From: a virus
DNA: 53,779 bases
Strand: one strand, 5' to 3'
IMG/VR virus record: IMGVR_UViG_3300027974_002090
Coordinates: 1 to 53,779 of that record
The position numbers and the translations under genes were made by a program. Shown here piece by piece: positions 12,492 through 36,018 of the stretch; the first letter of the stretch is position 1, and each line of letters opens with the position of its first letter. The notes beneath the pieces are model-generated. The model ran no database searches, was not told the origin of the DNA, and saw only the letters and a list, made by a program, of their open reading frames with translations.

Positions 12492-12498
12492 AAATCCC

Positions 12499-13510: not shown

Positions 13511-13549
13511 GAGGAGTCTTAGATAAATATCTAAGACTCCTCTTTTTTT
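13511..13549 (+). terminator. Strong intrinsic terminator after rIIB
   Basis: 15-bp perfect arms (13511-13525 and 13528-13542) followed by TTTTTTT. An A-rich stretch precedes the hairpin, so it may also terminate minus-strand transcription. Confidence 0.92.
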
Positions 13550-13690
13550 AACTTTTTTAGCTTTTTTTGGATAAAAAATGAGAAAAAAACCTTATTTAAT
13601 AGTGTATTTTTTTTCATTTTTATGGTAATGTAAAAGACATTATAGAAAGTAAGTAGCTTATACTTATTTACGAGTACTAATAAATTAATC

Positions 13691-19751: not shown

Positions 19752-19785
19752 CGTTGGGCATGAATAAATATTTTCATGCCCAACG
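19752..19785. promoter_or_regulatory. Perfect hairpin holding a late promoter box and a start codon
   Basis: 13-bp perfect inverted repeat (19752-19764 and 19773-19785, CGTTGGGCATGAA and its complement). AATAAATA (19763-19770) spans its 8-nt loop. The start codon of the subtilase gene (19776) lies inside the second arm. A transcript begun upstream would fold the start codon into the stem; one begun at the late promoter would lack the first arm. Confidence 0.75.
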
Positions 19786-21070: not shown

Positions 21071-21308
21071 ATCACAACATATAAACATAACATCTCTCTG
21101 TGACGGATATGCACAGGTTGAACCTGACGAAATAGAAAATTTCAAAAATATTTACTTTCATGTTGTTCGTGATGAACAAACTTTATTTCCTTTTATATAT
21201 CTAGAGAGTAGTCTTATAAAAGGTTATGTAGAAAAAACTATAATTAATATTCGTAAAAACGAATACATAATTGAAAAAGAAGGAAAGAAAACTACTTCTT
21301 CTTTTTAG
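21063..21308 (+). CDS. Small hypothetical protein
   Basis: An 81-residue acidic protein of predicted mixed alpha/beta content with no family recognised. It overlaps the upstream DUF1360 gene by 8 nt, so it belongs to the same late operon. Its 3' end overlaps the convergent minus-strand gene ending at 21292. Confidence 0.6.
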   Translation: MNESQHINITSLCDGYAQVEPDEIENFKNIYFHVVRDEQTLFPFIYLESSLIKGYVEKTIINIRKNEYIIEKEGKKTTSSF

Positions 21309-21540
21309 ATTTCCAAGATATTCTTTTAGAACTTTTCTTTTTCTTCATAGAAGAATTACACTGAGAAAGTGTAGGACGACAGGCGGGATAGCTTTTACGC
21401 TTCTCGCCTTTTTGTCGTCCACAAGGTTTTTTAGTTTTACAGTCTACCCATCCTGGCTTTCCGCCACTTTTATGAGAAAACCAGTCATGAAGACTTTCTT
21501 CTCCTAAGATAGAATTTACAAAACTGTCAAATTGATTCAT
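21292..21540 (-). CDS. Conserved basic Cys protein (DUF5872-like)
   Basis: An 82-residue, strongly basic protein with the block KPGWVDCKTKKPCGRQKGEK, then YPACRPT, which I associate with marine and T4-like phage proteins (DUF5872-like). The three or four cysteines suggest a small metal-binding or disulfide unit. A lysine/serine tail follows. Its start codon overlaps the stop of the next upstream gene, in an ATGA arrangement. Function unknown; possibly a DNA-binding virion protein. Confidence 0.7.
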   Translation of the reverse strand: MNQFDSFVNSILGEESLHDWFSHKSGGKPGWVDCKTKKPCGRQKGEKRKSYPACRPTLSQCNSSMKKKKSSKRISWKSKKKK

Positions 21541-22065: not shown

Positions 22066-22368
22066 TTACTTATTTAATTTTCTTATTTCATCATCAGAAA
22101 CTCCCATTTCACGAAGTTTATTAATTATAAATTTTAAACGGGAAATTTCATTTTCTTTTTGTTTTAATAAATTATTTCTTTTATTAGCATCATTTGTCAA
22201 ATTTATTTGTGAATCAAAAGTTTTAATATAATTTGCAATTTGAGAAGCAGCAGTTTTATAATCTTGCGGAGAATCTTTTGCAGCAAGTGGAGAGGTAGCA
22301 AGCGTTAGTGCTGCTCCAATACCACGAAGCATATTATTCTCATAGATTGTTGCAAGAGGGTCGTCCAT
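22066..22368 (-). CDS. Coiled-coil protein with IYEN-type N-terminus
   Basis: A 100-residue protein starting MDDPLATIYENNM, then an alanine-rich segment (GIGAALTLATSPLAAKD) and a helical, charged region likely to form a coiled coil. The N-terminus resembles MDNLSLIYENSL of the gene at 10443. The start at 22368 is fixed by the palindromic late promoter shared with the divergent gene. A longer ORF upstream would run through that promoter. Likely virion-associated. Confidence 0.65.
   Translation of the reverse strand: MDDPLATIYENNMLRGIGAALTLATSPLAAKDSPQDYKTAASQIANYIKTFDSQINLTNDANKRNNLLKQKENEISRLKFIINKLREMGVSDDEIRKLNK
22067..22074 (-). promoter_or_regulatory. Late-type promoter box AATAAGTA
   Basis: Minus-strand late-type box, 6 nt upstream of the ATG at 22060; it overlaps the stop codon of the upstream gene. 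Confidence 0.5.
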
Positions 22369-22399
22369 ATTTCTATTTATCTTTATAAATAGAAATATG
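22366..22399. promoter_or_regulatory. Palindromic divergent late promoter
   Basis: A perfect 14-bp inverted repeat (22366-22379 and 22386-22399, CATATTTCTATTTA and its complement) whose outer ends are the start codons of the two divergent genes. Each strand carries a late box ending 5 nt from its ATG (TATAAATA at 22384-22391 on plus; GATAAATA at 22374-22381 on minus). Confidence 0.75.
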
Positions 22400-22804
22400 A
22401 ATTTCAATGATTTTTATTTAAATTTTTCAAAAACCTATTCTAGAGAATTAGGCGAAAGTTTATGTTCTGAGAGCGAGAAAAAAGAAACGCAAAAAGATGC
22501 ATTTCAAAAATTTGCAGAAAAACGTAATTCTGGTGCTGAAAAGATAGCTGATGCGGCACATGAAAAAGGTGGTCCTGCTATGCTAACATATCATCACTTC
22601 AAAGTAAAATTACCATATTATAAAAAAGCCGCAAATGGTAAATTTGATATAGCTCAAGCAAAAAAGCAATTAAAACAACTTACTAACCAATTAAATGATG
22701 CTATGGACGGCACTATCAAAATGCAACAAACAGAATTTCAAAAAATTGTAGGTTTGATTGAAGTGTTGGGAGAATTAATTATTTTTTCTCAAACTCATGA
22801 ATAA
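22397..22804 (+). CDS. Late protein with capsid-targeting-like N-terminus
   Basis: A 135-residue protein starting MNFNDFYLNFSKTYSRELGE. The M-x-F-[KN]-x-[FL]-[YF] start recurs in several unrelated late genes here and resembles the T4 internal-protein signal MKTYQEFIAE. LGE at 18-20 fits a prohead-protease site. The rest is helical and lysine-rich (KKQLKQLTNQL), with an AEKRNSGAEKIADAA stretch. It probably belongs in the head interior; its activity is unknown. Confidence 0.65.
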   Translation: MNFNDFYLNFSKTYSRELGESLCSESEKKETQKDAFQKFAEKRNSGAEKIADAAHEKGGPAMLTYHHFKVKLPYYKKAANGKFDIAQAKKQLKQLTNQLNDAMDGTIKMQQTEFQKIVGLIEVLGELIIFSQTHE

Positions 22805-22828
22805 AGACTTTACAGGATAAACAAAATT

Positions 22829-23266
22829 ATGAGATTTAAAACGTTCTTCTTATTATATGAAAATTTATCTATAACTGGAGCAAAGATAACGCCAGAAGAA
22901 TCTATCTCAAGTGCTGCTATTAGAAATAAAAAAACAGGAGAAATAATAGAGGGAGCCTTTCACTATGATGCACAAACCTCTGCATGGGAAAAGGGATGGT
23001 TTCCTAAAAGTATAACCGATAAATTCTTAAATGGAATAAGAGAACTTCAAGACGAAAAAGATGGTTATACAATAATAAACGATATTCTCGAAGATGGTTT
23101 TACCACTTCCAAAGGAAGATTCTTGTCTAGACAAGATGCACTTAAAATAGCCAGAGCAGCAAGACAAATAAACCCAAGAATGCGTCCTGACGATGATATG
23201 ATAAGTCATTATAGCAATGGTCCAAAAGTAAAAGATATATATCTAAGATCAGAGGAGTTGCTATAA
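22829..23266 (+). CDS. Late hypothetical protein with MxFxxF N-terminus
   Basis: A 145-residue protein beginning MRFKTFFLLYENLS, a variant of the shared N-terminal signature. The body carries AAIRNKKTGEIIEGAFHYDA and EDGFTTSKGRFLSRQDALKIA, a strand-helix pattern seen in phage proteins of unknown role. No catalytic motif is recognised. It follows the previous gene by 24 bp without a strong promoter box. LYE at 9-11 is the only early protease-type site, so processing is uncertain. Confidence 0.6.
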   Translation: MRFKTFFLLYENLSITGAKITPEESISSAAIRNKKTGEIIEGAFHYDAQTSAWEKGWFPKSITDKFLNGIRELQDEKDGYTIINDILEDGFTTSKGRFLSRQDALKIARAARQINPRMRPDDDMISHYSNGPKVKDIYLRSEELL

Positions 23267-23269
23267 AAT

Positions 23270-23277
23270 AATAAATA
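23270..23277 (+). promoter_or_regulatory. Late promoter box AATAAATA
   Basis: Late-type box ending 5 nt before the ATG at 23283; the trailing GAAAT is the same as after the box at 22384. Confidence 0.6.
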
Positions 23278-23282
23278 GAAAT

Positions 23283-25808
23283 ATGACTTTCAAGGAATTT
23301 TATTTCAATGTTTTTCTTCCACAAACTATTATTGCAGAAGATTATACATCATCAGTTAATCAAATAACAAAAATAGTTAATAACAATGGTTTACCACCAG
23401 AGGATGTTGATAAAATTTTAGATATTTATAATAATGTAAGAGTTGATGAAGGTAGAGAAAAAGCTAAAAAAGATTCTGATCTTGTTGCACTAACATATGT
23501 GTATATGGTTGGAGAAAATATCGGTTTATCTATAGAAAACATCAAAAGAGAATATTCTGCTTATCTAAACTCAGAAACATCTGTGGGTAAAAAATTATTA
23601 TCAGATTATGTAATAAATTTACAAAACGAAATCAAATCCAAAGGATTATTCAAACCTGATAAAAAGGCAGAAAAGTTAGAATTAATTAAAAGTAAAACAA
23701 TAAAATTAATAGAAACTATTCATCGCTATCAAAAAAAAGAAGAATTTAGTGGAAAAATAATGAACGAAGAAGAAGATAAAGTTTATGAAGATAATAGTAT
23801 AACTATTTTTAAAGCAGATTCTAAACAAAAATGTATTTATTATGGAAGAAATACTAATCTTTGTATTTCTACAAAGTCTGGTAATTATTACTGGAAATAT
23901 AGAATGGGTAAAATGCAAAATTTAGGAATGACTACATATTTCATTATACCTAAAAATAGAAAAGAAAATGAACTAATTGTTATTGATGCAATGGGAAATG
24001 AAGAAGGTAGTAGTAATACATTCGGATATACTGTTGTAGAACCTTCAGGAAAACAGATTGAAGATTTATATAATATATCTGAAAAAGAATTAGAGAATAA
24101 ATTTCCTATGTTACAAAAACCGTTTAATCAAAATGTATTTCAATTTATACCATACGGTGAAAAAGAAAAAAGATTTCAATCTATTGATGAAGGTGACATT
24201 GGTTTTGTTAAATTATCAGGATATGAAGATTATGAAATGTATATTCAAACAGATCAGTTTGACTCTGATAATTGGAATATAATTGAAAAAAATGTAAATG
24301 ATAAAGATTTTGAAAAATTACTTTTATTAGCTTCTGAATTACAAAAAATTATTCCTTATGATTTGACTGAAAAATATTTCTCTGAAAAACAAAAGGAAAG
24401 ATATTTTGAAAATATAGCAAAAGATCCAGAGTATTCTTATCTTTATGCCAGAGATGTATTAAACGGACAAAATGTTCCACCTATTATATTACAAAGTATT
24501 GCAAAAGGTCCAGAATATTCTTATGATTATGCTGTAAATGTATTAGAAAAAGGACAAAATGTTCCAGATATTATAGAACAGGGTATTGCAAAAGATCCAG
24601 CGTATTCTTATTATTATGCTAAAGAGGTATTAAAAGGTCAAAATGTTCCAGATATTATAGAACAAAGTATTGCAGAAAATATATATTATTCTTATAATTA
24701 TGCCAAATATGTATTAAAAGGAAAAAATGTTCCGCCTATTATATTACAAAGTATTGCAACAAGTCCAGAATATTCTTATAATTATGCTAAAGATGTATTA
24801 AAAGGACAAAATGTTCCAGATATTATAGAACAGGGTATTGCAGAAAATACATATTATTCTTATAATTATGCTAAAGATGTATTAAAAGGAAAAAATGTTC
24901 CGCCTATTATAGAACAAAGTATTGCAGAAAATACATCTTATTCTTATAATTATGCTAAAGATGTATTAAAAGGTCAAAATGTTCCGCCTATTATATTACA
25001 AAGTATTGCAAAAGGTCCAGAATATTCTTATCTTTATGCCAGAGATGTATTAAAAGGTCAAAATGTTCCACCTATTATATTACAAAGTATTGCAGAAAAT
25101 CCAGAATATTCTTATGATTATGCCAAATATGTATCATTAAACGGTCAAGTTATTCCACCTATTATATTACAAAGTATTGCAGAACCTCCAAAGTATTCTA
25201 ATAAAAGTCTTACAGAAGCCAAACAAAGTTTAACAGAAGCAACACTAAATTCTCTCTCAACAGATGTAATTCGTTCTAATTCAACAAATATAAACAGTAT
25301 TGAAGATAGAAATTTCTCATCAGACTATGCAGCAGATGCAAGTTCAGTAATTAGAGATTCAACAATGAGCGGTTTTATAGGAGAAGGTATATTTGATGAC
25401 TCAAACCAATTAGTAGGTTATGGTTATGGTTATCGTATGGATGTGAATAGTGAATATAATATGCTAGAATACGTGGACACTAGTGAAATTACCTTTTTCG
25501 ATGATAAATTTGAACAATCTGTTATTAATAATGGAATAGAAAATATATGTACTCCAAAAAATACATTTTACGTTTCTAATCTTGTTGTTGATAAACCTTA
25601 TCGTTTACATGTAAAACCGTTGTTAAACACATTATTAAATCGTATTAGTAATAGAGGATACAAATATATAACATTCAACGGATTAAGTGATACTATACGT
25701 TTATTTGACTCTGCTAGAAAAGCTAGTCGTTTAAGTGGTAATAACTTGACAAAATTAGCAGAAATTGATACAGGAGAATCTAAATTTGTTCTTTTCTATA
25801 TTAAATAA
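23283..25808 (+). CDS. Large repeat protein with targeting N-terminus and GNAT-like C-terminus
   Basis: An 841-residue multidomain protein. Residues 1-19 are a targeting-like start (MTFKEFYFNVF, then IIAE as a possible protease site). Residues 170-240 contain IYYGRNTNLCISTKSGNYY, like the YGxxTxxC domain I associate with phage proteins. Residues 378-643 are nine near-identical 28-residue repeats. Residues 695-841 look like a GNAT acetyltransferase fold (FYVSNLVVDKPYRLHVKPLL and the following helix), though the acetyl-CoA loop is not canonical. It is probably packaged or virion-associated, with an enzymatic tail. The domain calls for the middle and end are tentative. Confidence 0.7.
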   Translation: MTFKEFYFNVFLPQTIIAEDYTSSVNQITKIVNNNGLPPEDVDKILDIYNNVRVDEGREKAKKDSDLVALTYVYMVGENIGLSIENIKREYSAYLNSETSVGKKLLSDYVINLQNEIKSKGLFKPDKKAEKLELIKSKTIKLIETIHRYQKKEEFSGKIMNEEEDKVYEDNSITIFKADSKQKCIYYGRNTNLCISTKSGNYYWKYRMGKMQNLGMTTYFIIPKNRKENELIVIDAMGNEEGSSNTFGYTVVEPSGKQIEDLYNISEKELENKFPMLQKPFNQNVFQFIPYGEKEKRFQSIDEGDIGFVKLSGYEDYEMYIQTDQFDSDNWNIIEKNVNDKDFEKLLLLASELQKIIPYDLTEKYFSEKQKERYFENIAKDPEYSYLYARDVLNGQNVPPIILQSIAKGPEYSYDYAVNVLEKGQNVPDIIEQGIAKDPAYSYYYAKEVLKGQNVPDIIEQSIAENIYYSYNYAKYVLKGKNVPPIILQSIATSPEYSYNYAKDVLKGQNVPDIIEQGIAENTYYSYNYAKDVLKGKNVPPIIEQSIAENTSYSYNYAKDVLKGQNVPPIILQSIAKGPEYSYLYARDVLKGQNVPPIILQSIAENPEYSYDYAKYVSLNGQVIPPIILQSIAEPPKYSNKSLTEAKQSLTEATLNSLSTDVIRSNSTNINSIEDRNFSSDYAADASSVIRDSTMSGFIGEGIFDDSNQLVGYGYGYRMDVNSEYNMLEYVDTSEITFFDDKFEQSVINNGIENICTPKNTFYVSNLVVDKPYRLHVKPLLNTLLNRISNRGYKYITFNGLSDTIRLFDSARKASRLSGNNLTKLAEIDTGESKFVLFYIK
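24417..25211 (+). repeat. 84-bp coding tandem repeats (nine units)
   Basis: Nine full units and one partial unit encode 28 residues each (29 in two), with the consensus IAENPEYSYNYAKDVLKGQN followed by VPPIILQS. Units differ mainly at the first residues and at ILQS versus IEQG. DNA identity between units is high, which points to recent expansion. The helical pattern suggests a solenoid. Confidence 0.92.
25799..25807 (+). promoter_or_regulatory. Late-type box TATTAAATA
   Basis: Variant late box overlapping the stop of the repeat protein, 5 nt before the ATG at 25813. Confidence 0.4.
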
Positions 25809-25812
25809 CTAT

Positions 25813-26604
25813 ATGAAGTTCAACGAGTTTTACGATATAATCGAAAATAAATTATGTGTATTATCAGAATCACAAAATTTTGATTTTGAAAGACATAAAT
25901 CTATGATTATGAGCTTTATTCAAAAAATAAAAAGCAATAAAACATTAACAGAATATGATAATCCTTTTTATAAACTAATTGTAGGAGATGTTGGAGGTTC
26001 TGTTGGCGCACACAGAAATACAGGTTTTACTCAAGAGCAAAGTGACCAATGGAAAAATTATTTCTCATCAAAAGTTTTTGATACAGATGGTGTTTGGAGT
26101 CAAAGAAATTTAAATAAAAATTTACCAAGAAAAAGCGGAGACAGAACTTATAATTATTACATAAGCATCGCAAAAGATAAAAATAATATACTTAAATTCT
26201 GGAGTAAACTTGGACAACTAGATGCTGCATTATCCAAATTATCAAATGATAGTGGGGTTCCTATAAGTTATAAAACCCATAGACTTTTAGATGTATTTTT
26301 AGCACATAATGATAGTCTTAAAGTTTATTATTACGATGCACAATTAAAACCTCAGATTGAGAGTATAGTTAAAGATTGGTTAAATAGTAACGGTATAATC
26401 CAAGGAGATAGAACACACCATCATGGTGTGGATAAACCTGATGCTAGTGGTAAAAAGCTTTCGTTTGGACAAATATTATCAAATCAAGTAGCTCAACAAT
26501 TGATAAATGCTATAAAACAAAATCCAAACGTAGAAGACGAAAAATGGTTTGAATGGGTTAAAAAATATACCCCTGAAATTATTCGGAAAATACAAGTACA
26601 ATAA
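25813..26604 (+). CDS. Late protein with targeting N-terminus, effector-like
   Basis: A 263-residue protein starting MKFNEFYDIIENKLCVLSES, with the shared signature and LSE at 17-19 as a possible cleavage site. The body has RTYNYYISIAKDKNNIL, a helix, and YKTHRLLDVFLAHNDSLKVYYYDA, then VKDWL. This is distantly like the HopA1 bacterial effector layout (a hypothesis only). The start at 25813 is chosen over an upstream in-frame codon because the late box and signature agree. Confidence 0.6.
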   Translation: MKFNEFYDIIENKLCVLSESQNFDFERHKSMIMSFIQKIKSNKTLTEYDNPFYKLIVGDVGGSVGAHRNTGFTQEQSDQWKNYFSSKVFDTDGVWSQRNLNKNLPRKSGDRTYNYYISIAKDKNNILKFWSKLGQLDAALSKLSNDSGVPISYKTHRLLDVFLAHNDSLKVYYYDAQLKPQIESIVKDWLNSNGIIQGDRTHHHGVDKPDASGKKLSFGQILSNQVAQQLINAIKQNPNVEDEKWFEWVKKYTPEIIRKIQVQ

Positions 26605-26608
26605 AGTT

Positions 26609-27100
26609 ATGAATTTTAAAGAACTATACGATTTAGTAAAAGAAAGTATTGAAGGAAGACTAGCAGAAAATAATGCAAGAGAAATATTCGGTTCGGACGA
26701 TGAACCTAATATTCGTGGATATATTTACCAAGATGGTAGTTTTTTAAACTTAGGTTCTGGACAAGATCATCGAGAAATAAACTTTGCATACTTTCCAGAT
26801 AGTGACGAATACCCATCTTTACAAGAAATAGAAATTGAAGAAAACAACTTAGGTTCAAGTAAATATATGATTCATTTTATGAGCGAAGCTGGAGCAATAA
26901 GATGGGCTAGGATTAATACTGATCTCTTAGTATTATCATATGTAAGAAAACCTACATATGCACAAAAAAGAGCAATCACAAAAATAATAGATAATTATAA
27001 TATATCAACAGTATCAGTAGATGTTTATTCACCTAAATACCAAACCTTAAAATCTGTTGAAGGTGATGTTTGGGATGATGATGTACAAAAATTAATTTAA
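26609..27100 (+). CDS. Late phage protein with targeting N-terminus
   Basis: A 163-residue protein starting MNFKELYDLVKES, with LAE at 18-20 as a possible protease site. It then has NIRGYIYQDGSFLNLGSGQD followed by HREI, a small domain I recognise from many phage proteins of unknown role. An EAGAIRWARI strand follows. It ends the late plus-strand group; a bidirectional terminator follows at once. Confidence 0.65.
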   Translation: MNFKELYDLVKESIEGRLAENNAREIFGSDDEPNIRGYIYQDGSFLNLGSGQDHREINFAYFPDSDEYPSLQEIEIEENNLGSSKYMIHFMSEAGAIRWARINTDLLVLSYVRKPTYAQKRAITKIIDNYNISTVSVDVYSPKYQTLKSVEGDVWDDDVQKLI

Positions 27101-27103
27101 TAA

Positions 27104-27129
27104 AAAACCCACTCAATTGAGTGGGTTTT
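27104..27129. terminator. Bidirectional terminator
   Basis: A perfect 26-bp palindrome (AAAACCCACTCAA and its complement) between the convergent genes ending at 27100 and 27135, with T-runs on both strands. Confidence 0.9.
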
Positions 27130-27134
27130 CTTTT

Positions 27135-28427
27135 TTATCCTATTAATTCTTTTATAGGTTCAGATTTATTACCAACTGTGAATGGTCGGTTACTTGGACT
27201 CATCCATACGTGATCATGTTTAATCCCAAGAAGATACCCAATCGTTGCATTAAGTTCTCCAATTTCAGTTGGACGTTCTACAACCTTACTTCCATTCTCG
27301 TCGGTTTTACCAACAACCTTACCACCAAGACCACATCCACCAATTAGGCATGAAAAAGCACTTGGATGATGGTCACGACCTTCATTTTTATTTAAACCAA
27401 GTAAATTATTCTCGTTTTTAGAATCTATTGTTCTACCAAACTCTGTTGCAATTACAACAAGAGTTTCTTTTAATAATCCACTTTCACTTAAATCACTAAA
27501 AAGAGAAGCTAATGCTTTATCATAGTATTCTGCTTTGTTAGTCATTGCTGTGCTAATGTCATTGTGCATGTCCCAGCCACCGTCACCAATCTCTATGTAA
27601 CGCACTCCGCGAGAGATTAAGCGTTTAGCAAGAAGGCAACCTTGACCAAAGTTGCTACGTCCATAACGGTCACGATTTTCAGGGGTTTCTTTGGTAAGAT
27701 CAAAAGAGTCTAAGTCTTCACTTTTTAAAAGTTTAAGAGTTTCATCATAAAGAACATTATACGAATTAACATCCTTTACTCCATAGCCTTCTCGGAAATT
27801 TCTGTCAAGAGCATTTAACACGCTGAGTCTATTGTTAAGACCACTTTCACTAACAGACAATTTACTAAAACGAAGTCCTTCGTTTGGATTTATAATAGGA
27901 AGAGGAGTAAATTTTTTATCTAGATAACCTTCTCTTGGATGATCATTATCACCAGAGATAAGAATATTATCAGGAATGCTATCATGACTTTTGCCTAATA
28001 GATATGAGCTTATTGCACCCATTGCAGGGTGAATTGTTAAACCGTTTTTATTATAAGAAGTTCTCATAAGATATTGACCTTGTGAGTGTGCGCCTGTTTT
28101 AGATGTCATTCCTCTTAATAGAGAAAACTTGTCACCGTGCTTTGCTAATTCTTTGAAATATTCAGAAACTTGAAAGTCTCCACTTGTTTGAACACTTTTA
28201 ACGCCACCCATTACATTTTCACCTTTAGGATCAAATGAATCTAAATGACTCATACCACCATTGTTATAAATGTAAATAATGTGTTTAGCTTTGCCGAAAA
28301 AAGCAGAAGAAACATTTTCTGCTAAAGAAGGAGTACTTAATACACTAACACCAAATGTTGTGTATGCGAGTTTTTCGATGAAATCTCTTCTACCAAGAGA
28401 GCAACTGAGGTTGAGGTTTTTTTCCAT
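27135..28427 (-). CDS. DUF1501 protein with Tat signal, copy A
   Basis: A 430-residue DUF1501-family protein. Residues 12-35 form a Tat-type signal (GRRDFIEKLAYTTFGVSVLS). Family blocks follow: IIYIYNNGGMSHLDSFDPK, MTSKTGAHSQGQYLM, GVRYIEIGDGGWDMHND, LVVIATEFGRT and GRDHHPSAFSCLIGG. The family is related in fold to sulfatases and alkaline phosphatases and is typically paired with DUF1549/1553 proteins in Planctomycetota and Verrucomicrobiota. It should be exported folded. It is last in the minus-strand unit after the DUF1549/1553 gene and a small gene. Its function is not established, and its presence in a phage is unusual. Confidence 0.92.
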   Translation of the reverse strand: MEKNLNLSCSLGRRDFIEKLAYTTFGVSVLSTPSLAENVSSAFFGKAKHIIYIYNNGGMSHLDSFDPKGENVMGGVKSVQTSGDFQVSEYFKELAKHGDKFSLLRGMTSKTGAHSQGQYLMRTSYNKNGLTIHPAMGAISSYLLGKSHDSIPDNILISGDNDHPREGYLDKKFTPLPIINPNEGLRFSKLSVSESGLNNRLSVLNALDRNFREGYGVKDVNSYNVLYDETLKLLKSEDLDSFDLTKETPENRDRYGRSNFGQGCLLAKRLISRGVRYIEIGDGGWDMHNDISTAMTNKAEYYDKALASLFSDLSESGLLKETLVVIATEFGRTIDSKNENNLLGLNKNEGRDHHPSAFSCLIGGCGLGGKVVGKTDENGSKVVERPTEIGELNATIGYLLGIKHDHVWMSPSNRPFTVGNKSEPIKELIG

Positions 28428-28560
28428 AATTTTGTTCTATATCTTCAATATTTTTAGATTTATTATTTTCTATGTAACTTGATGCAGCTACAATAGAATC
28501 GTAAAATCTTTTTTCTTTTCTTGCGTTTTCTTCTTCTTGAAGTATTAATATTTCTTCCAT
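28390..28560 (-). CDS. Small coupled protein between DUF1549/1553 and DUF1501 genes
   Basis: A 56-residue helical, glutamate- and lysine-rich protein (EEILILQEEENARKEKRF). Its ATG lies 1 nt after the stop of the DUF1549/1553 gene and it overlaps the DUF1501 start by 38 nt in another frame. The tight spacing on both sides supports translation. No family recognised; no signal peptide. Confidence 0.5.
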   Translation of the reverse strand: MEEILILQEEENARKEKRFYDSIVAASSYIENNKSKNIEDIEQNYGKKPQPQLLSW

Positions 28561-28561
28561 A

Positions 28562-30322
28562 TTATTTTCTAAATAAAAATTCTCTTGAGTTAATCAAAGC
28601 CCATACAAGATCATCTGTTTGAGTTTTTGATAAAATTACTCTTTCGTCAACTTTACTAGGACGACTTAGTATACTTAAAAACAAGCTGTCCTTTTGTTTA
28701 TCTTTTGAGAAGTTTTGATAAATTTGACTTTTTTTATCTATTAAAAGTTCAACGATTGGTGAATTCATAATAGTTAAAACTTGTGTTATACTACCTTTGT
28801 CATTACTTGAGTCAATAAGAACACGATCACTACTGCCATATTCTTTTAAAAATTGACCTACAAAAGAGTTACGATTCATAAGATATGATGCACGCACCAA
28901 ATCTATATTTTTATATTTTAAAAATTTTTGATTAATTAGACGATCATAGTTTCGAAGGTCTTCAACTTTTTGAAGAAGATATTTTCCATTAATATCTTTC
29001 CAATCAATTTTTACAAGATTAGAATATTCAGAAAAAGAAAAACGACTATAATTTACATCAGGAACTACAAGAGTTAAAATGCTGTCCCAAATCTGGTATG
29101 CATTCATTCTTTTTACAAGTATAGATTGATAAGCATAACTTTCATCTTTTCCAGTATATGCTTCTCTGTTATAAAAGTCACTGGTTGATATAAGACGAAG
29201 AAGACTTTTAATGCTGTAGTTATGTTGTTTGAAATAATCTCCAAGAAAAGTTAACACTTCACCTTCTGGATAATCTGATAAAATAAAGTTTGTTTCAGGA
29301 ACTATAAGTGCTTTTCCTACAATATTCGCCCACACTCTATTTGAAATAGAGTGTGTAAAGTCTTCGTGTTCAACAATCCATTTAGAAGCAACATCTCTTT
29401 TATTTTCTTTTATACTTTTAAATTTGCTGTCAAGTGTATTTGGTTCAACAACGTCAAAAGGTTTTGCATCTTTATACCTATAATCATGAGGAAGTTTTAA
29501 TGTTTTATTATCATCATCTTTTAAATTAAAAAGATTTGCTGATAATAATTGACGAACATTATTGTCTATACGGTCTTTTTTTGTAATCTCTTTAATCTCG
29601 TTATCTACTTTTTTAATAATATCATTATATTCTTTTCTTCTTTCTCTTGTATCTAAAGAGTTAAAAAAAGATGCCATTTGATAAAACTGCATTTGAGTAT
29701 AGTCTTGAAATGGATCATCGTGACACTGCGCACAAGCTAAGTCTTTGCCTATAAAAAGCTGTAAACTTGTAGCAAGATTGTCAAGAGGCATACCATTGTC
29801 ACGAAGCATATATCCAGCAGCACCATTGTCAGAGAATTTACCATCCGCAGAAAGTAAAGAATAAACAAAATCTTTGTAGGATTTGTCGTTTCTTACAAAT
29901 GATTTTACATAATCTATGTAAGGATATGACTTTAAGAGTGCTACATCATCAGCAAGTCTTTCAGGTCTGATACGAAAAATATCAGCCCAAAAATTATAAT
30001 AATTATTAACATAATCCTCAGACAACAATATTTTATCAACAGTCTTTTCTTTTTTCTGAGAATCTTTATCTTTTATAAACGTATCAATTTCATTATATGT
30101 AGGAATTCTTCCTGCCAGATCAACATAAACACGTTTAATCCAAGTATATTCATCTGTTAATTTTGCATTACCTTTAACTGTATTTTTAACGTAATAAGTT
30201 CTTAAAACGCCGTCTAATTCATTTGTTGCAAAAGCAGATACCGAAAAGAGAGAGAACATTAAAATGACTAAGATTTTTTGCATACCTGATAACATACTTA
30301 CCAAATAACTCTTTTCTTTCAT
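28562..30322 (-). CDS. DUF1549/DUF1553 protein, secreted
   Basis: A 586-residue protein with both domains of the planctomycete-type pair. There is an N-terminal signal peptide (QKILVILMFSLFSVSAFA). The DUF1549 part has YVDLAGRIPTYNEIDTFI and a CAQCHDDPF motif resembling a heme c C-x-x-C-H (about 198). The DUF1553 part has NRVWANIVGKALIVPETN, TIMNSPIVELLI and DLVWALINSREFLFRK. Related proteins often carry an extra cytochrome-c-like domain, absent here. It should act outside the cytoplasm with the adjacent DUF1501 protein. The CxxCH could bind heme or only resemble such a site. It lies directly after the clamp-loader gene. Confidence 0.92.
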   Translation of the reverse strand: MKEKSYLVSMLSGMQKILVILMFSLFSVSAFATNELDGVLRTYYVKNTVKGNAKLTDEYTWIKRVYVDLAGRIPTYNEIDTFIKDKDSQKKEKTVDKILLSEDYVNNYYNFWADIFRIRPERLADDVALLKSYPYIDYVKSFVRNDKSYKDFVYSLLSADGKFSDNGAAGYMLRDNGMPLDNLATSLQLFIGKDLACAQCHDDPFQDYTQMQFYQMASFFNSLDTRERRKEYNDIIKKVDNEIKEITKKDRIDNNVRQLLSANLFNLKDDDNKTLKLPHDYRYKDAKPFDVVEPNTLDSKFKSIKENKRDVASKWIVEHEDFTHSISNRVWANIVGKALIVPETNFILSDYPEGEVLTFLGDYFKQHNYSIKSLLRLISTSDFYNREAYTGKDESYAYQSILVKRMNAYQIWDSILTLVVPDVNYSRFSFSEYSNLVKIDWKDINGKYLLQKVEDLRNYDRLINQKFLKYKNIDLVRASYLMNRNSFVGQFLKEYGSSDRVLIDSSNDKGSITQVLTIMNSPIVELLIDKKSQIYQNFSKDKQKDSLFLSILSRPSKVDERVILSKTQTDDLVWALINSREFLFRK

Positions 30323-30327
30323 TTTAA

Positions 30328-31044
30328 TCAGAGTTTACTTTTTAAATTGAATAATAGTGCAGAGAAATTAACTTCTGGGTCCATTACAAAAGAATGTCGA
30401 TACATATACTCGCTGATAAGAATACTTGCAATACTATTACACTCTCTTACATACAAGTGGAACAAGTCTTTCATAAGACTATGATAATCATTTCCGAACT
30501 TGTCACTTTCATCTACAATCTTTTGACGAATCTGGAAAACGTCTTTACCCTCTTTCAGATTTTCTTTAATCTCTCTGGCAAAATCATTTCCTAACTGCTT
30601 GCTATAAATGAATGTTCCTGAGATGCAGCATCGTTGCAACTCGTTGATTGTTTTACGAATATCAGGGAAAAGATCTTTTACAAGACCTCTAATGTTCTCA
30701 AGATTTTCTTTTTGAACCAAAACTTTCTCAGATTTGAGAATATTTACGATTCTTTGCAATACTTGCTTTTCTGAACAAGTAAAAGTAAACTCTTGACAAC
30801 GAGAACGTAATGCTTCAATAAGTTTGTTTCGATAATTTGCTGTAAGAATAAACTTAACAGAGTCAAGATAATCTTCCATAACTGAACGAAGAGCTTGCTG
30901 TGCCGTCATCGACATGCCATCACAATTACTTGTCATAATTCCTGTTTGTCCGACGAAAAAATTATGGGTTCCGCCTACACTCAAATCATATACATGTGAT
31001 AGTGTTTCGAGTTTTTTGATATTCTTAATTCTTAATTTTTGCAT
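30328..31044 (-). CDS. 44: Clamp loader gp44-like, C-terminal part with IntC
   Basis: A 238-residue protein. Residues 1-40 are a split-intein C-fragment ending in the HNFFVGQTGIMTSN block, with the terminal Asn that cyclises during splicing. The C-extein begins with Cys41 (CDGMSMTAQQALRSVMEDY), the continuation of the Walker B region, then ILTANYRNKLIEALRSRC (sensor 1 and the SRC motif) and the helical clamp-loader C-domain. After trans-splicing with the protein at 31981-32604 it gives a loader of about 301 residues, close to T4 gp44. Its start overlaps the end of the endonuclease gene by 20 nt. Confidence 0.92.
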   Translation of the reverse strand: MQKLRIKNIKKLETLSHVYDLSVGGTHNFFVGQTGIMTSNCDGMSMTAQQALRSVMEDYLDSVKFILTANYRNKLIEALRSRCQEFTFTCSEKQVLQRIVNILKSEKVLVQKENLENIRGLVKDLFPDIRKTINELQRCCISGTFIYSKQLGNDFAREIKENLKEGKDVFQIRQKIVDESDKFGNDYHSLMKDLFHLYVRECNSIASILISEYMYRHSFVMDPEVNFSALLFNLKSKL

Positions 31045-31945
31045 ATTTTTGTACCTTTTTGTATTGTTCTTTAGCAGATTCGTTATTGTTTATTAAATTA
31101 ATATTTAAAAAATTATGTATATTATTCTCATTTATCCATATAAATTTCATATTATTACTCAAACAATAATTTATAAAAGTGTTTATTTTTTCGATCTCTT
31201 TGTTAAATTGAGATACTGGTTTTATCTCATATAAAATTCTATTTTTTTCATCATAAAAATCATTAACATAAACTCGGTCTCCGTTTCTGATTCTGATGTT
31301 TTCGTATAATAACTGCTGATTACAGAACCAAAAGCACGCTTCCCATGAACTTCTAAATTTATAAATATTATCATCTATAGTAATTTGAGCATTCCAATGT
31401 GTCCATGTATTTGTAACGTTTGGTGTAAATTTACCTTCTAATATTTGTTTTTTGAGATAATCTGATTGTTTTTTAGCTTTTTCTTTTTGTATCTGCTTTC
31501 CCCTTTCTGAATTATTGAATTTTTTATGGGAAACAGTCATTTTTTTCCTTATTTCTATACCCTGTTCAGAATCCATAATCTCTTTAATTCTTTTAGATAA
31601 AAGAGATTTTGTTTTTTCAGAAGTAATATAGTTTTTAGTCCATACTTTCTTATCTATCTCGTCTTTAGAAAATCTACAAAAGCCTCTCTTTAAATTAAAA
31701 TCTTCAAATGTCAATCTTTCCCCCGAATATTCACTATATGCTGGTGAATGGTCTAGATATAAAAAATAACGAAGACAATCAGGAAACATCTTTACAGAAA
31801 GACTAGCTTTCCAAGCTATTTTATTTTTTAATATTTTTCCAGTAATAGGGTTATAAAATTCTATATTTTTGTTTTTATATAAATTATAAAAATTTTCGAT
31901 TTCTTCTTTAGTATAATTTTGCCTTCGTAATGTATTTCCGCCCAT
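31025..31945 (-). CDS. Homing endonuclease inside the split clamp-loader locus
   Basis: A 306-residue protein with a basic N-terminal half (ERGKQIQKEKAKKQSDYLKK). Its C-terminal domain has YKFRSSWEACFWFCNQQLL, then VNDFYDEKNRILYEIKPVSQF, a Vsr/PD-(D/E)xK-type nuclease pattern. Free-standing endonucleases of this kind are known from fractured genes with split inteins. It sits between the two halves of the clamp loader, on the same strand, with its own TATAAATA late box, whereas the loader N-part has an early promoter. T4 endonucleases such as I-TevI also use late expression. Confidence 0.85.
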   Translation of the reverse strand: MGGNTLRRQNYTKEEIENFYNLYKNKNIEFYNPITGKILKNKIAWKASLSVKMFPDCLRYFLYLDHSPAYSEYSGERLTFEDFNLKRGFCRFSKDEIDKKVWTKNYITSEKTKSLLSKRIKEIMDSEQGIEIRKKMTVSHKKFNNSERGKQIQKEKAKKQSDYLKKQILEGKFTPNVTNTWTHWNAQITIDDNIYKFRSSWEACFWFCNQQLLYENIRIRNGDRVYVNDFYDEKNRILYEIKPVSQFNKEIEKINTFINYCLSNNMKFIWINENNIHNFLNINLINNNESAKEQYKKVQKYAKIKN

Positions 31946-31951
31946 ATATAT

Positions 31952-31959
31952 TATTTATA
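31952..31959 (-). promoter_or_regulatory. Late promoter box TATAAATA for the nested endonuclease
   Basis: Exact late box on the minus strand, 6 nt upstream of the ATG at 31945. Confidence 0.7.
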
Positions 31960-31980
31960 TGAGCAAGTATATATATTCCG

Positions 31981-32604
31981 TCAAACTGTAAGAATTTCCA
32001 AAATATTATTAGAAATAATATCTTTTAATTTTTTTCTTGTGATTTCTCCTGTCATAGAGTCTTCTACGTACCATTTATGATCTTCTGTACAAACAATAAA
32101 CTCTCCGTTTTCAAATTCTACTTCATAAACTTCTTGAACCCCTTTATCAATCTTAAAAAACGGTCTATATTCAATTCGAGATAAATCGAAATTATACGTC
32201 TTCACCAAATCATTATCAGGGTCAACATCTTTAATGGGAATTTTTTGTTCAGACCCATCTTTTAGAATTGAAACTAGAGTATTTTCTTCCAAACATTCAT
32301 CTAAAATAACAATTTTTTGATTGCCGTCAATACTCATTACAGATATAAATTCACTAATCAAGTTTCTTACTGTATCAATGTTACCTTGTTCAGATGCATT
32401 AATATACATGTAAGAATTTGGTGAAAACTTTTTAGCAAGAATCTTTGCAATTGTACTCTTCCCGATGCCTGGACTTCCTACAAGAAGAAGATTATTTGGA
32501 ACTTCTTTAAGAGAAGAGAAATACTCTTTTTCTTTGTCATTTAAAATAACGTCTTCAATGTTTTGTGGGCGATACTTTTCAGTCCAAACTTGGTTAATAG
32601 TCAT
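31981..32604 (-). CDS. 44: Clamp loader gp44-like, N-terminal part with IntN
   Basis: A 207-residue protein. Residues 1-103 are the N-half of an AAA+ clamp loader: WTEKYRPQNIEDVILN, Walker A GSPGIGKST (about 44-51) and the Walker B start KIVILDE. At Cys104 the sequence becomes an intein N-fragment (CLEENTLVSILKDGSEQ, then TEDHKWYV, the block B His), ending at 207. The break is exactly within Walker B, so neither half can hydrolyse ATP before trans-splicing. An early leaderless promoter fixes the start at 32604. Confidence 0.92.
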   Translation of the reverse strand: MTINQVWTEKYRPQNIEDVILNDKEKEYFSSLKEVPNNLLLVGSPGIGKSTIAKILAKKFSPNSYMYINASEQGNIDTVRNLISEFISVMSIDGNQKIVILDECLEENTLVSILKDGSEQKIPIKDVDPDNDLVKTYNFDLSRIEYRPFFKIDKGVQEVYEVEFENGEFIVCTEDHKWYVEDSMTGEITRKKLKDIISNNILEILTV

Positions 32605-32609
32605 GGGTG

Positions 32610-32638
32610 ACTTTACTCTTATACTGCTATTATGTCAA
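32610..32638 (-). promoter_or_regulatory. Early promoter for the clamp loader N-part
   Basis: Minus strand: TTGACA (32633-32638), a 17-bp spacer, TAAAGT (32610-32615), and the ATG at 32604 after 5 nt. Confidence 0.72.
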
Positions 32639-32643
32639 GTTCT

Positions 32644-32651
32644 AATAAATA
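32644..32651 (+). promoter_or_regulatory. Late promoter box AATAAATA
   Basis: Late-type box ending 5 nt before the ATG at 32657 of the kinase-like gene; divergent from the clamp-loader early promoter. Confidence 0.55.
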
Positions 32652-32656
32652 TAATT

Positions 32657-33403
32657 ATGAAATTCAAAGATTTTTATATTAACAGATATTTAAAAGAAAG
32701 TGACGAATACAATACAGCAAATTTTAGTTCTTCGTCATCTGAAGATATAAACGATAATGAAGATTTTGACATGGTTTACGACCGATTAAAAGCAAATGGT
32801 TGGAAAGAAATAGGATCAGGTAGTTTTGCAAAAGTTTTTGAACATCCAGAAAAAGACTATGTTATGAAACTGTTCACTGATCAGTGTTATTTAGCTTTTC
32901 TTCGCTTTTTAGAAAGACATCAAAACAACCCACACATTGTTAAAGTTAAATCAATAGATATTATTCCAAAGGGAGATAATGTAGGTTTAGTAGCAATTGA
33001 AAAATTAAAGAAAGCAAATTTTTCAAATTGGAGAAATAATTTAGCTTTATCTTTCGGAGGTTATCTATCTTCTACCACTATTGGAAATCGCTCTTTGGAA
33101 ACAGTGGTTGATGGTTTTATGAACAAAGTTAAAAAAGACGAAAATTCTATGAAACAATATTACGTTGTAAAGAATCAAGATACGCCTGAAAAAGATTTTA
33201 GACAAAAAATATCCCATCATGATCGCTTATTAAGAAGAGTAGAGTTTTTCATAGAAGATAATCTACCTCTTGCTAGAGCACTATATGAACTTTCTAAGTA
33301 TTTAGAAATGAACCACAAATACTGTGCTTTTGATCTACACAGCGGAAATTTTATGATTCGTCCATCAACAGGAGAAATTGTTATAACTGATCCTGTAGCT
33401 TAA
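32657..33403 (+). CDS. Protein-kinase-like protein with targeting N-terminus
   Basis: A 248-residue protein. MKFKDFYINRYLKES is the shared targeting-like start, with LKE at 12-14 as a possible protease site. A kinase-like domain follows: glycine-rich loop IGSGSFAKVF (52-61), VMKLF with the likely ATP-binding Lys71, catalytic loop FDLHSGNFMIRP and ITDP in place of the usual Asp-Phe-Gly. Sizes and motifs fit small phage protein-kinase-like proteins. If packaged, it could phosphorylate host targets at entry. A decayed copy lies just downstream. The start is set by the late box at 32644. Confidence 0.78.
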   Translation: MKFKDFYINRYLKESDEYNTANFSSSSSEDINDNEDFDMVYDRLKANGWKEIGSGSFAKVFEHPEKDYVMKLFTDQCYLAFLRFLERHQNNPHIVKVKSIDIIPKGDNVGLVAIEKLKKANFSNWRNNLALSFGGYLSSTTIGNRSLETVVDGFMNKVKKDENSMKQYYVVKNQDTPEKDFRQKISHHDRLLRRVEFFIEDNLPLARALYELSKYLEMNHKYCAFDLHSGNFMIRPSTGEIVITDPVA

Positions 33404-33421
33404 CAGGATTATATTGTATAA

Positions 33422-33429
33422 TATAAATA
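33422..33429 (+). promoter_or_regulatory. Late promoter box TATAAATA before the kinase remnant
   Basis: Exact late box ending 5 nt before the ATG at 33435. Confidence 0.6.
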
Positions 33430-33434
33430 ACTTT

Positions 33435-33621
33435 ATGAATTTTAAATATTTTTATGAACAAAACGTTAACAGAGATCTTGAAATTTTTAAAACTTTTTAT
33501 AGACTTAGAAAATTTTTAGAAAAAAAATAACAAAACACATTTATATGATCTACATTCTGGTAATTTTATGATGCGTCCATCAACAGGAGAAATTGTAGTA
33601 ACTGATCCAATCGCTTTTTAA
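33435..33621 (+). pseudogene. Decayed second copy of the kinase-like gene
   Basis: The start reads MNFKYFYEQNVNRDLEI, the shared signature, and continues to FLEKK and a stop at 33530. In another frame the DNA goes on with YDLHSGNFMMRPSTGEIVV and TDPIAF up to 33621, nearly identical to the kinase C-terminus. Removing one A from the 8-A run near 33521 joins the frames and then aligns without gaps with the intact gene. The middle, including the glycine-rich loop and lysine, is deleted. It has kept its late promoter. Confidence 0.85.
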
Positions 33622-33782
33622 GCTATAATATCAGTTAAAATTTTTCCATCTCTTACAATATCAACTGGACGTAAATCGCTTGTCATTAAGCGTTTCTCAT
33701 AATTTATTCCCATAAGAGAATACATGGTTGCTGCAAGATTTTCAGGAGATATTTTTACTTTTGCAGTTCTTCCAAATAAGTA
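33618..33782 (-). pseudogene. C-terminal remnant of a third DUF1501 gene
   Basis: The minus strand reads SYLFGRTAKVKISPENLAAT, then MYSLMGINYEKRLMTSDLRP and VDIVRDGKILTDII. This aligns with the last 60 residues of the DUF1501 protein at 34768-36018. Everything upstream of this point is missing and replaced by the HNH gene, whose late promoter and start lie at the boundary. It converges with the kinase remnant; the two stop codons overlap. Confidence 0.88.
33775..33782 (+). promoter_or_regulatory. Late-type box AATAAGTA for the HNH gene
   Basis: Late-type box 5 nt before the ATG at 33788; it lies inside the DUF1501 remnant. Confidence 0.5.
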
Positions 33783-33787
33783 ACTAT

Positions 33788-34771
33788 ATGGATGAACTAC
33801 ATAGTTATAAAACAAACTGTCTAAATTGTAACAAAGAAATGGATTTATATCAATCGAGTACTATTAAGGGAAAATTATATTATAGAAAAGATCGTGTAAA
33901 CAAATTCTGTAGTAATAAATGTAATGGAGAATATAAAATTAGAAACATACCAAAAAAATGTCCTACTTGTTCAATCGAATTTTTTACTAAACCACATGAA
34001 AGTAAATTATTTTGCTCCACTAAATGTAGTACAACACGTAAAAATTTTACAAAGAAATGTGATTCTTGTCAAAAGGATTTCGTATCGTCGCATATAAGAT
34101 CGAAATTCTGTTCTAAACAATGTCATAGAAATAATAGACTCTCTGAAGTAAGAACTAAAAACAACACCCAAATTTACACTAAAAAATGTCAGAGTTGTGA
34201 TAATTATTTTAAAGGTTCTTGTAAACAAATATTTTGTTGTCGAGAATGTAAAAGACCGAAAAAACATGTTTATAAAGAACGCGCAATAAATATAAAAAAA
34301 GAACTTGTACAGTTAAAAGGTGGTTGTTGTCAAATATGTAAGACGTATTTTGATGAATTATCTAAATATTGTTTTCATCATATCAGGGATAAAAAATTTA
34401 CTCTAGATCAAAGTAACTTATTAAAATATTCAATGAATGAAATATTAAATGAATTAGATAAATGTGTGCTATTATGTCACAATTGTCATGTGATTGAGCA
34501 CCAAAACGCTAAAAATAAACGAAAAATAAGAAAAGGACAGCAAATAAAAGAAATTCTTATAGAACAATTAGGAAATGTTTGTTCTGAATGTGGCTGGAAT
34601 TCCAAATACACCGCAACACTATCGTTTGACCATTTGTATGATAAAAAATTTGAATTAAATATAAAAGAATTATCATATAGAACTATAGACGAAATAAACG
34701 AGGAAGTTAAGAAATGTCAACTTCTATGCATTAATTGTCATATTGGAAAGAATGAAACAAAAGATCGTTAG
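33788..34771 (+). CDS. Zinc-rich endonuclease with two HNH domains
   Basis: A 327-residue protein. Residues 10-160 hold four or five short Cys4 zinc-ribbon units (CLNCNKE, then FCSNKC; CPTCSIEF, then FCSTKC; CDSCQKDF, then FCSKQC; CQSCDNYF, then FCCREC). Two HNH domains follow: CCQIC, then YCFHHIRDKKF and LLCHNCHVIEH (about 197-240), and CSECGWNS, then LSFDHLYDKKF and LLCINCHIGKNE (about 267-325). Two HNH units in one chain is unusual. The gene lies between a complete DUF1501 gene (convergent, 4-nt overlap) and a DUF1501 remnant, so it is probably a homing endonuclease. Confidence 0.85.
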   Translation: MDELHSYKTNCLNCNKEMDLYQSSTIKGKLYYRKDRVNKFCSNKCNGEYKIRNIPKKCPTCSIEFFTKPHESKLFCSTKCSTTRKNFTKKCDSCQKDFVSSHIRSKFCSKQCHRNNRLSEVRTKNNTQIYTKKCQSCDNYFKGSCKQIFCCRECKRPKKHVYKERAINIKKELVQLKGGCCQICKTYFDELSKYCFHHIRDKKFTLDQSNLLKYSMNEILNELDKCVLLCHNCHVIEHQNAKNKRKIRKGQQIKEILIEQLGNVCSECGWNSKYTATLSFDHLYDKKFELNIKELSYRTIDEINEEVKKCQLLCINCHIGKNETKDR

Positions 34772-36018
34772 ATTATAATATCGCGTAATAGTGTTCCTCC
34801 GTTAATAATATCTATGGGTCTAAGATCAGATGTAACTAGTTGTTTTTCAGGTTCAATGCCCATAAGAGAATACATAGTATATGCCAAATCTTGTGGAGAT
34901 ACAGGGTTTTCGTCCGGTTCCATAGCCAAAGAATCTGATTTTCCATATGAAAATCCTTGTTTTGTCCCTCCTCCTGCCATAACAACACTAAAAACCTTTG
35001 GCCAGTGATCTCTTCCAGAAGTAGAGTTCATCTTTGTTCTTCCAAACTCACTTGTAACCAAGACAAGAGTGCTGTCTAGCATTCCACGGTCACTTAAATC
35101 AGATATTAATGCAGAAAATGCTTGGTCAAAGTTTGGTGCTTGACTAAGCATTGCAGAATTCAAATTACTGTGATGATCCCAGCTACCATAATTAACTGTT
35201 ACCATTCGAACTCCTGCTTCTACGAGACGACGCGCCATTAAGAAACGCATTCCAGCAGAATTGTTTCCATAGTTTTCTTTTGTTTTAGTAGTTTCTTTAT
35301 TTAAATCAAAAGCATCTCTGGCTTCTGAAGAAGAAATTAAATTAAATGCATTTTGATAAAAAGAATCCATTGCTTGAACAGAATCACTTTTTTCAATATT
35401 CTTGAAATGGTTATCCACTATATCTAAAAAACGACGACGACGCTGTAATTGACCTTCGTTAATTCCTAAAGGAACATTCAAATCTCTTACTTGGAAATCA
35501 GAATTTTCTGGATTACTGCCAAGTGCAAACGGTCCATACTTTGTTGAAAGATAACCAGTTCCGTTTTCTGGTGCAAATTGATTTGGCACAAGAACATAAG
35601 GAGGTAAATTGTTTCTTCCGCCTAATTCATGTGAAACAATGCTTCCAAATGAGGGATATTGAATAGCAGGACTTGGACGATAACCTGTGAGCATGTTATG
35701 AACTCCTCGTTCATGTGCAGCTTCTCCATGAGTCATGCTTCTAATGACTGTTAATTTATCACTAATTTTAGCGGTTTCTTTTAACAATTCACCAAAGAAA
35801 ACATCACTTATTTTGGTTTTAATTCCACTAAAAGGTCCACGATATTCAGAAGAACCATTTGGTTTATAGTCCCATGTATCTTGGTGAGCCATTCCACCAG
35901 GAAGAAAGATGTGAATAACACTAGTTGCTTTCGTAGCTTTTGTTTCGTTGGCTTTGAGCCAAAAAGGAAGATTTATTCCTGCGGCGGCTCCTACTTGAAG
36001 AATGGTTCGTCTGTTCAT
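34768..36018 (-). CDS. DUF1501 protein with Tat signal, copy B
   Basis: A 416-residue DUF1501 protein with a short Tat-type signal at its start (NRRTILQVGAAAGINLPF). Family blocks are VIHIFLPGGMAHQDTWDYKP, MTHGEAAHERGVHNMLTG, GVRMVTVNYGSWDHHSN, LVLVTSEFGRTKMNSTSGRD and HWPKVFSVVMAGGG. The C-terminal VSPQDLAYTMYSLMGIEPEK matches the remnant at 33618. Unlike copy A it has no DUF1549/1553 partner next to it. It should be exported; function unknown. Confidence 0.92.
   Translation of the reverse strand: MNRRTILQVGAAAGINLPFWLKANETKATKATSVIHIFLPGGMAHQDTWDYKPNGSSEYRGPFSGIKTKISDVFFGELLKETAKISDKLTVIRSMTHGEAAHERGVHNMLTGYRPSPAIQYPSFGSIVSHELGGRNNLPPYVLVPNQFAPENGTGYLSTKYGPFALGSNPENSDFQVRDLNVPLGINEGQLQRRRRFLDIVDNHFKNIEKSDSVQAMDSFYQNAFNLISSSEARDAFDLNKETTKTKENYGNNSAGMRFLMARRLVEAGVRMVTVNYGSWDHHSNLNSAMLSQAPNFDQAFSALISDLSDRGMLDSTLVLVTSEFGRTKMNSTSGRDHWPKVFSVVMAGGGTKQGFSYGKSDSLAMEPDENPVSPQDLAYTMYSLMGIEPEKQLVTSDLRPIDIINGGTLLRDIII

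Follow-up and report, generated by a model that had tools for sequence, protein, structure and literature searches.

Why should a row of putative late genes whose products are otherwise unrelated begin with the same few residues? The question is raised by positions 22,397 to 33,621 of a 53,779-base virus record (IMG/VR IMGVR_UViG_3300027974_002090), the whole of which was analysed and is referred to here as the window. The first-pass annotation of this DNA pointed to seven genes starting with M-x-F-[KN]-x-[FL]-[YF] and suggested, from their likeness to the internal proteins of phage T4, that the products are taken into the prohead, trimmed and injected. Our analysis indicates that the shared N-terminus is a capsid-targeting sequence of the T4 type with an enlarged enzyme cargo, a reading to which we assign a probability of about 0.78; packaging, cleavage and injection of the proteins themselves are inferred by analogy with T4.

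A shared N-terminus on unrelated proteins

All seven genes are present with the N-termini that had been described. We call these genes tagged and their common N-terminal segment the leader (class A):

22397..22804, plus strand: tagged protein of 135 amino acids (aa); MNFNDFY, then LGE at residues 18-20; homologues with the same leader in the related contigs G003 and G004
22829..23266, plus strand: tagged protein of 145 aa; MRFKTFFLLYE (LYE at 9-11); matches PHROG 839 (E 1.1e-9), a family without known function
23283..25808, plus strand: tagged protein of 841 aa; MTFKEFY, then IIAE (17-19); central tandem repeats and a GNAT-like C-terminus
25813..26604, plus strand: tagged protein of 263 aa; MKFNEFY, then LSE (17-19), with an additional IIE at 9-11; in G004 the mature part is kept behind another leader
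26609..27100, plus strand: tagged protein of 163 aa; MNFKELY; MNFKELYDLVKE (VKE at 10-12), besides LAE at 18-20
32657..33403, plus strand: tagged kinase-like protein of 248 aa; MKFKDFY; MKFKDFYINRYLKE (LKE at 12-14); motifs GSGSFAKV, VMK, DLHSGN and TDP
33435..33621, plus strand: relic of a second tagged kinase; MNFKYFY, 31 codons and then a stop; leader intact, body decayed

Past residue 20 the best BLASTP match between any two of the six intact proteins has an E of 0.025, which bears out the claim that their bodies are unrelated. The last two genes are related, as had been noted: the relic is a decayed kinase copy whose start resembles that of an intact G004 kinase (MNFKQFYEQN), followed in a different frame by LYDLHSGNFMMRPSTGEIVVTDPIAF, which is like the end of the 32657 kinase. 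LGE, IAE, LSE, LAE and LKE all lie at the places given for them, and with the LYE of 22829 an [IL]-x-E is found within residues 9-20 in all six intact genes. The range of residues 12-20 given for the triplet in five proteins is not a limit: in family representatives the glutamate is most often near residue 12.

The pattern recurs in related contigs. Promoter, motif and triplet counts were made on 11 of them (G001, G003, G004, G006, G008, G014, G017-G020 and G022). Excluded were G010 (99.95% identical to the window), G012 and G013 (97% identical tail tube), G015, G016 and G023 (which have the tagged genes of G017), G021 (same as G018), G024-G026 (portal 39-42% identical; G022, at 46%, was retained) and G002, G005, G007, G009 and G011, candidate members known by the DNA pattern alone. 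The DNA pattern itself matched 11 contigs, two of which, G005 and G011, have no fitting class A open reading frame (ORF) of at least 50 aa. Requiring both the motif and a promoter (at most two mismatches) yielded 79 proteins in 38 families, as defined by residues from 23 on; the promoter match of 26609 is too weak for inclusion in this set. As G001 and G006 overlap, a few genes are counted twice within families, and the triplet test therefore used one representative per family. An [LIVFYM]-x-E with the glutamate at residues 9-20 was present in 34 of the 38 representatives, the background being 105 of 434 in windows from inside the same proteins and 21 of 60 in N-termini of other late genes; for strict [LI]-x-E the corresponding figures are 23/38, 52/434 and 16/60. 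Among the representatives the glutamate is commonest 6-8 residues past the second conserved hydrophobic residue. When all six frames of the window were scanned with a less strict motif together with [LIVFYM]-x-E, a search blind to the short relic, 8 hits were returned, 6 of which are the window genes. The shared motif exceeds chance.

The motif search of N-termini that had been proposed as a check was extended over more of the genome, and in what is known of the phage it revealed about 23 tagged proteins belonging to two leader classes (G001 has 10 hits and G006 16, with two in common, and one, at window position 2085, is probably due to chance). The same scan over 50 kb of the 169 kb of T4 gave five hits, three of them being ipI, ipII and ipIII and the other two probably fortuitous, and over 100 kb of the 176 kb of cyanophage P-RSM4 it gave three, the most leader-like of which (MYYQDFIKLVE) lies slightly upstream of the large terminase gene.

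A T4-type phage and its head genes

The window matches G001 (82,488 bases) over 50.7 kb at 99.9% identity, and G001 overlaps G006 (75,059 bases) by 28,792 bases at 99.997% identity. G006 carries a T4-type portal, with about 30% identity to cyanophage gp20 across half its length, and its end has 115 identical bases in common with contig L195, whose metagenome number is that of G001. L195 encodes a T4-type major head protein (gp23, confirmed with PHROGs in L195 and G020) and a protease of the gp21 type (E 4.4e-36 to the head maturation protease of PHROG), the gene whose presence elsewhere in the genome had been named as a check. From the overlapping contigs, the portal and the L195 genes, the window belongs to a T4-type phage that very probably has a gp21-type protease, the 115-base link to L195 being short. 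The Pfam families of gp21 and gp23 found no match in G000, G001, G006 or the DNA-pattern contigs; they were silent in control genomes too, and this silence is therefore not taken as absence. The gp21 family was afterwards searched in portal-bearing relatives and by protein, and is present in 9 of 13 such relatives, some of which are near-duplicates. The gene in the position of the scaffold (gp22) gave no PHROG match and is named by position only.

The likeness to the T4 capsid-targeting sequence holds on closer comparison. T4 ipII and ipIII begin with MKTYQEFIAEA and ipI with MKTFKEF followed by ITEA, showing the same i/i+3/i+4 spacing of hydrophobic residues and an [LI]-x-E; the clade leaders have large hydrophobics at the spacing of T4 Y4, F7 and I8. 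In T4, residues 4 and 7 are reported to direct targeting and residues 8 and 10 processing, with cleavage after [LI]-x-E, and the N-terminal signal is established as exchangeable for capsid targeting (PMC9026906). IPI, IPII and IPIII thus have in common with the clade the spacing, the triplet and the unrelated mature parts, and in T4, likewise, these go with a gp21-type protease and T4-type head genes (PMC9026906, PMC3012670). T4 differs in having three ip genes (50 kb scanned) as against about 23 tagged genes with two leader classes here, and both the enzyme cargo and the promoter abutting the ATG belong to this clade. The diversity of such internal proteins among T-even phages has been described (PMC12373910, PMC3012670), and the variable ip genes resemble the present set in encoding diverse injected proteins with a common N-terminal signal (PMC12373910). 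Ip1-3 of T4 are reported to block type IV restriction (PMC12373910); the present set is from a different phage clade, probably with a different host, and an anti-restriction role for it would be conjectural. ADP-ribosyltransferases (ARTs) and NUDIX proteins of myoviruses have been predicted to be packaged and injected (PMC9503650); the domain classes are the same as here, but that prediction was drawn from fusions and neighbouring genes, whereas each of the present proteins has a leader-type N-terminus.

Candidate processing sites also occur in the head proteins of the clade. The capsid N-termini contain MVQE-AGG (G015, G017), LLQE-APL (G018, G021), VIQE-TNY (G019), LIQE-TSG (G020) and SLIQE-TGM (L195), each followed by a variable stretch, and RKLIVE is found at the gp21 N-terminus in 6 of 9 contigs and in L195; the capsids of the more distant G024-G026 have no such obvious [LIV]-x-E site. 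If these candidate sites are cut, as T4 would lead one to expect, the clade protease would accept [LIV]-x-E, which fits the leaders.

Cargo behind the leader and its exchange

The cargo had been said to include a kinase-like protein and a large repeat protein with an acetyltransferase-like end; the first part is supported and the second moderately so. The 32657 product matches PHROG 15752 (E 4.6e-18) and has kinase motifs, while a phmmer search of PDB returned a single match, at E 0.82. The C-terminus of the 23283 product has no Pfam match; its predicted structure is of low confidence (mean predicted local distance difference test score, pLDDT, 37.8), and such models can mislead Foldseek, but all four matches at E <= 0.001 are acetyltransferases, which moderately supports a GNAT-like fold. 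For 25813 (mean pLDDT 51.4) no Foldseek match at E <= 0.001 was obtained, and no function is therefore claimed. Against Pfam the six window proteins gave nothing over cut-off; PHROGs returned one kinase, one function-unknown family and repeat matches.

Enzymes are also found among the tagged proteins of other clade records. A domain scan of 20 proteins identified three ART-PolyVal, one NUDIX and two GNAT domains over cut-off, with weaker matches to Arr-ms and to DUF3990, which we take to be grouped with the ADP-ribosyltransferases. Starting from the domain, a search of 16 clade records for ART-PolyVal gave 11 genes in 10 records, all of them with a class A or B leader and 10 with a promoter of at most two mismatches; the background in those records, near-duplicates included, is 165 of 750 ORFs for the motif and 120 of 750 for motif and promoter together. 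Positions and sequences repeat in G015/G016/G017/G023, so that 8 genes differing from one another remain; they form five groups, of which at least two are distant relatives of each other, and the 11 cannot be treated as independent. Both NUDIX genes, which are orthologous, are tagged, and so are the GNAT genes of G003 and G018.

The class B leader, MT[RE]NFDxFxxxxLxE, is found in G006, G014, G017 and G020 on ART, basic and other proteins (G006 10962-13926; window 21292-21540, minus strand), and in a 396-aa protein of G006 it is repeated internally ahead of the ART domain. A third recurrent N-terminus, [DP]LxxIYE[NS], is carried by late genes and genes of the head module (window 22066-22368, minus strand; G020 12026-12355 and 291-1127; L195 10239-10592) and possibly likewise ends in a cleavable [IL]-x-E. 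The window examples are:

21292..21540, minus strand: candidate head protein, 82 aa and very basic, with the class B leader MNQFDSFVNSILGE; no match in Pfam or PHROG
22066..22368, minus strand: late gene with the third N-terminal pattern, MDDPLATIYEN (class C, speculative)

Comparison of the window with its relatives bears on how the cargo changes. Over its whole length the 25813 protein is 92% identical to its G004 counterpart, and the mature parts are nearly identical; M1, F3, E5, F6, Y7 and S18-E19 are kept in the leader, and residues 8-17 match at K13 only. The homology of the window to G004 or G003 has 17 right-hand ends, and 8 of these fall 5 to 41 nt past the start of a tagged gene (22402, 22414, 22839, 22841, 23303, 26643, 32677 and 33476); of the 32 ends in all, 14 lie between -20 and +45 nt relative to tagged starts, an interval that makes up 3.4% of the region. 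In G003 a GNAT gene stands in place of the cargo of 22841-27100, together with a gene whose match to DUF3990 is weak and below cut-off, and the upstream DNA of 26609 precedes another gene in G004. Pairwise comparison of 10 contigs placed 117 break-point endpoints at tagged starts against 10.3 expected, endpoints within one genome pair not being independent. Judged from these alignments, the leader segment is a preferred joint, as are gene boundaries generally. As with the T4 internal proteins, the mature parts are unrelated and are exchanged among related phages.

A different view of the tagged proteins is that they enter the prohead as core, scaffold or DNA-condensing structural proteins and are neither effectors nor injected. 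Several of them are small and basic, and G020 and L195 encode a 70-aa class B protein flanked by gp21 and the scaffold-position gene, much as the T4 core genes 67 and 68 lie just ahead of gp21; its place beside gp21 means that not all tagged proteins need be injected effectors. The ART, NUDIX, GNAT and kinase domains on several tagged proteins, together with the exchange of tagged genes among relatives, speak against this view, which we consider unlikely.

Putative late promoters and the nature of the conserved unit

Three of the tagged genes in the window are directly preceded by promoter-like elements:

22385..22396, plus strand: late-promoter-like ATAAATA plus 5 nt, adjoining the ATG of 22397
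23271..23282, plus strand: late-promoter-like ATAAATA plus 5 nt, before 23283
32645..32656, plus strand: late-promoter-like ATAAATA plus 5 nt, before the kinase gene 32657

Imperfect ATAAATA sites belong to 22829, 25813 and 26609, and further phased copies occur in the window at 33423 and 19764. In the clade ATAAATA lies 11-14 nt upstream of start codons; across the 11 contigs it stands 12 nt (+/-1) before open-frame ATGs 110 times, versus 2 to 6 times at 8-10 or 18-20 nt. Since ATAAATA is phased to the ATG, the late mRNAs are probably leaderless, starting at or near the ATG. Among 28 early positions listed by hand, 22 are start codons, five of which have a Shine-Dalgarno-like site. The motif core follows 34 of the 110 ATGs with an exact phased ATAAATA, compared with 93 of 2919 other ATGs.

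Such an arrangement would suit an explanation at the level of the nucleic acid, in which late mRNAs without a leader need a particular AT-rich start and the peptide motif is a by-product. The portal, baseplate-wedge (presumably gp25), gp21 protease and scaffold-position genes, however, have the same promoter and not the motif, and synonymous codons vary inside the motif: in 18 class A representatives F3 is encoded by TTT in 11 and TTC in 7, and residue 7 by TAT in 11 and TAC in 4, being otherwise F. On these two grounds the explanation was rejected, and the conserved unit is most likely the peptide. The pattern also reaches the [LIV]-x-E near residue 12, and the T4 leaders match although their genes have ordinary ribosome-binding sites (AGGA upstream), so that we give a DNA element very little credence. 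Equally hard to credit is that the leader sends proteins to the baseplate, tail or host membrane: several tagged genes do lie among the tail/baseplate genes of G006, but the leader spacing and triplet match the T4 head leaders, candidate [LIV]-x-E sites occur in the clade capsid and protease, and no signal-peptide-like hydrophobic run was seen by eye.

Several observations count against the significance of the pattern or against the capsid-targeting interpretation. ATAAATA is not enriched over the whole window (38 found, 45.8 expected), its position alone being special; in T4 it occurs within 60 nt in 8 of 19 genes examined, 21-42 nt upstream, but no ip gene of T4 has one that close, and the placing of the promoter is therefore not something the clade shares with those genes. 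Other late starts also collect break-points, more weakly (105 against 24.4 expected in the 10 contigs), and the effect is therefore partly one of gene boundaries. One of three distinct GNAT genes, common to G001 and G006, is untagged, which means that enzyme type alone does not predict the tag. Four of the six window proteins (22397, 22829, 25813 and 26609) have no assigned function, a few of the 38 families resemble chance matches (e.g. MHWDCFS, MINIFFS, MENFEEYL), and the class B protein beside gp21 belongs to this list as well.

The T4 leader match, the protease and the roughly two dozen tagged proteins nevertheless support the head-packaging interpretation, and the following course is proposed. 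Late transcription would probably start from promoters abutting the start codons. The leader, with hydrophobic residues at positions 3, 6 and 7 and a later [LIV]-x-E, would bind the scaffolding core as in T4 and bring the protein into the prohead, where the gp21-type protease would cut after the glutamate. The freed proteins would remain with the packaged DNA and enter the cell alongside it, and the kinase, ADP-ribosyltransferases, NUDIX and acetyltransferase-like proteins may then act on host targets or defences. Cargo genes appear, from the homology break-points, to be swapped between related phages behind the conserved promoter and leader. Because of the analogy with T4 Ip1-3 and with the predicted packaged ARTs and NUDIX proteins, the role of the cargo is likely to be the disarming or reprogramming of the host at the start of infection. 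Opinion is evenly balanced on a broader proposal, that the capsid-targeting sequence serves as a general delivery platform with at least two leader classes, more than 20 different proteins per virion, among them kinases, several ADP-ribosyltransferases, NUDIX and acetyltransferase-like enzymes, and the promoter-leader segment as the joint for swapping.

The tag principle is known from T4, and a cargo so large and varied appears unusual. The clade itself is new, as are the number of tagged proteins and the enzymes among them, the existence of a second class of leader, promoters so close to the ATG that an mRNA leader has hardly any space or none, and homology break-points that fall within the protein leader; a literature search of titles and abstract openings found no description of such a clade, which does not prove that there is none. 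Phage-injected proteins are usually unknown and are found one virion at a time, whereas a leader that can be read from sequence would supply candidate injected effectors in uncultivated T4-type phages, including proteins without a known domain, and predicts that injected effectors are swapped between phages by recombination within the promoter-leader segment.

The neighbouring genes are of some interest in their own right. Two minus-strand blocks, 27135-30322 and 33618-36018, hold DUF1501 and DUF1549/DUF1553 genes of Planctomycetota/Verrucomicrobiota type in a T4-type phage, along with an apparent DUF1501 fragment, and have corresponding DNA in the relatives G003 and G004. The best matches of the DUF1501 gene at 34768-36018, at 61% or less, are to Verrucomicrobiota and Planctomycetota (best 80 of 105), which hints at the host. 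The clamp-loader (gp44-like) gene at 30328-32604 on the minus strand is apparently split by an intein and an inserted endonuclease-like gene, as read by eye. A subtilase gene (Peptidase_S8, E 1.2e-53) at 19776-20771 on the plus strand has a phased late promoter without the leader, and the minus strand of G006 at 43875-46363, with the corresponding part of G001, carries tandem paralogous genes that start with MKETIAQ and contain YWxKxEYDxNG-type repeats.

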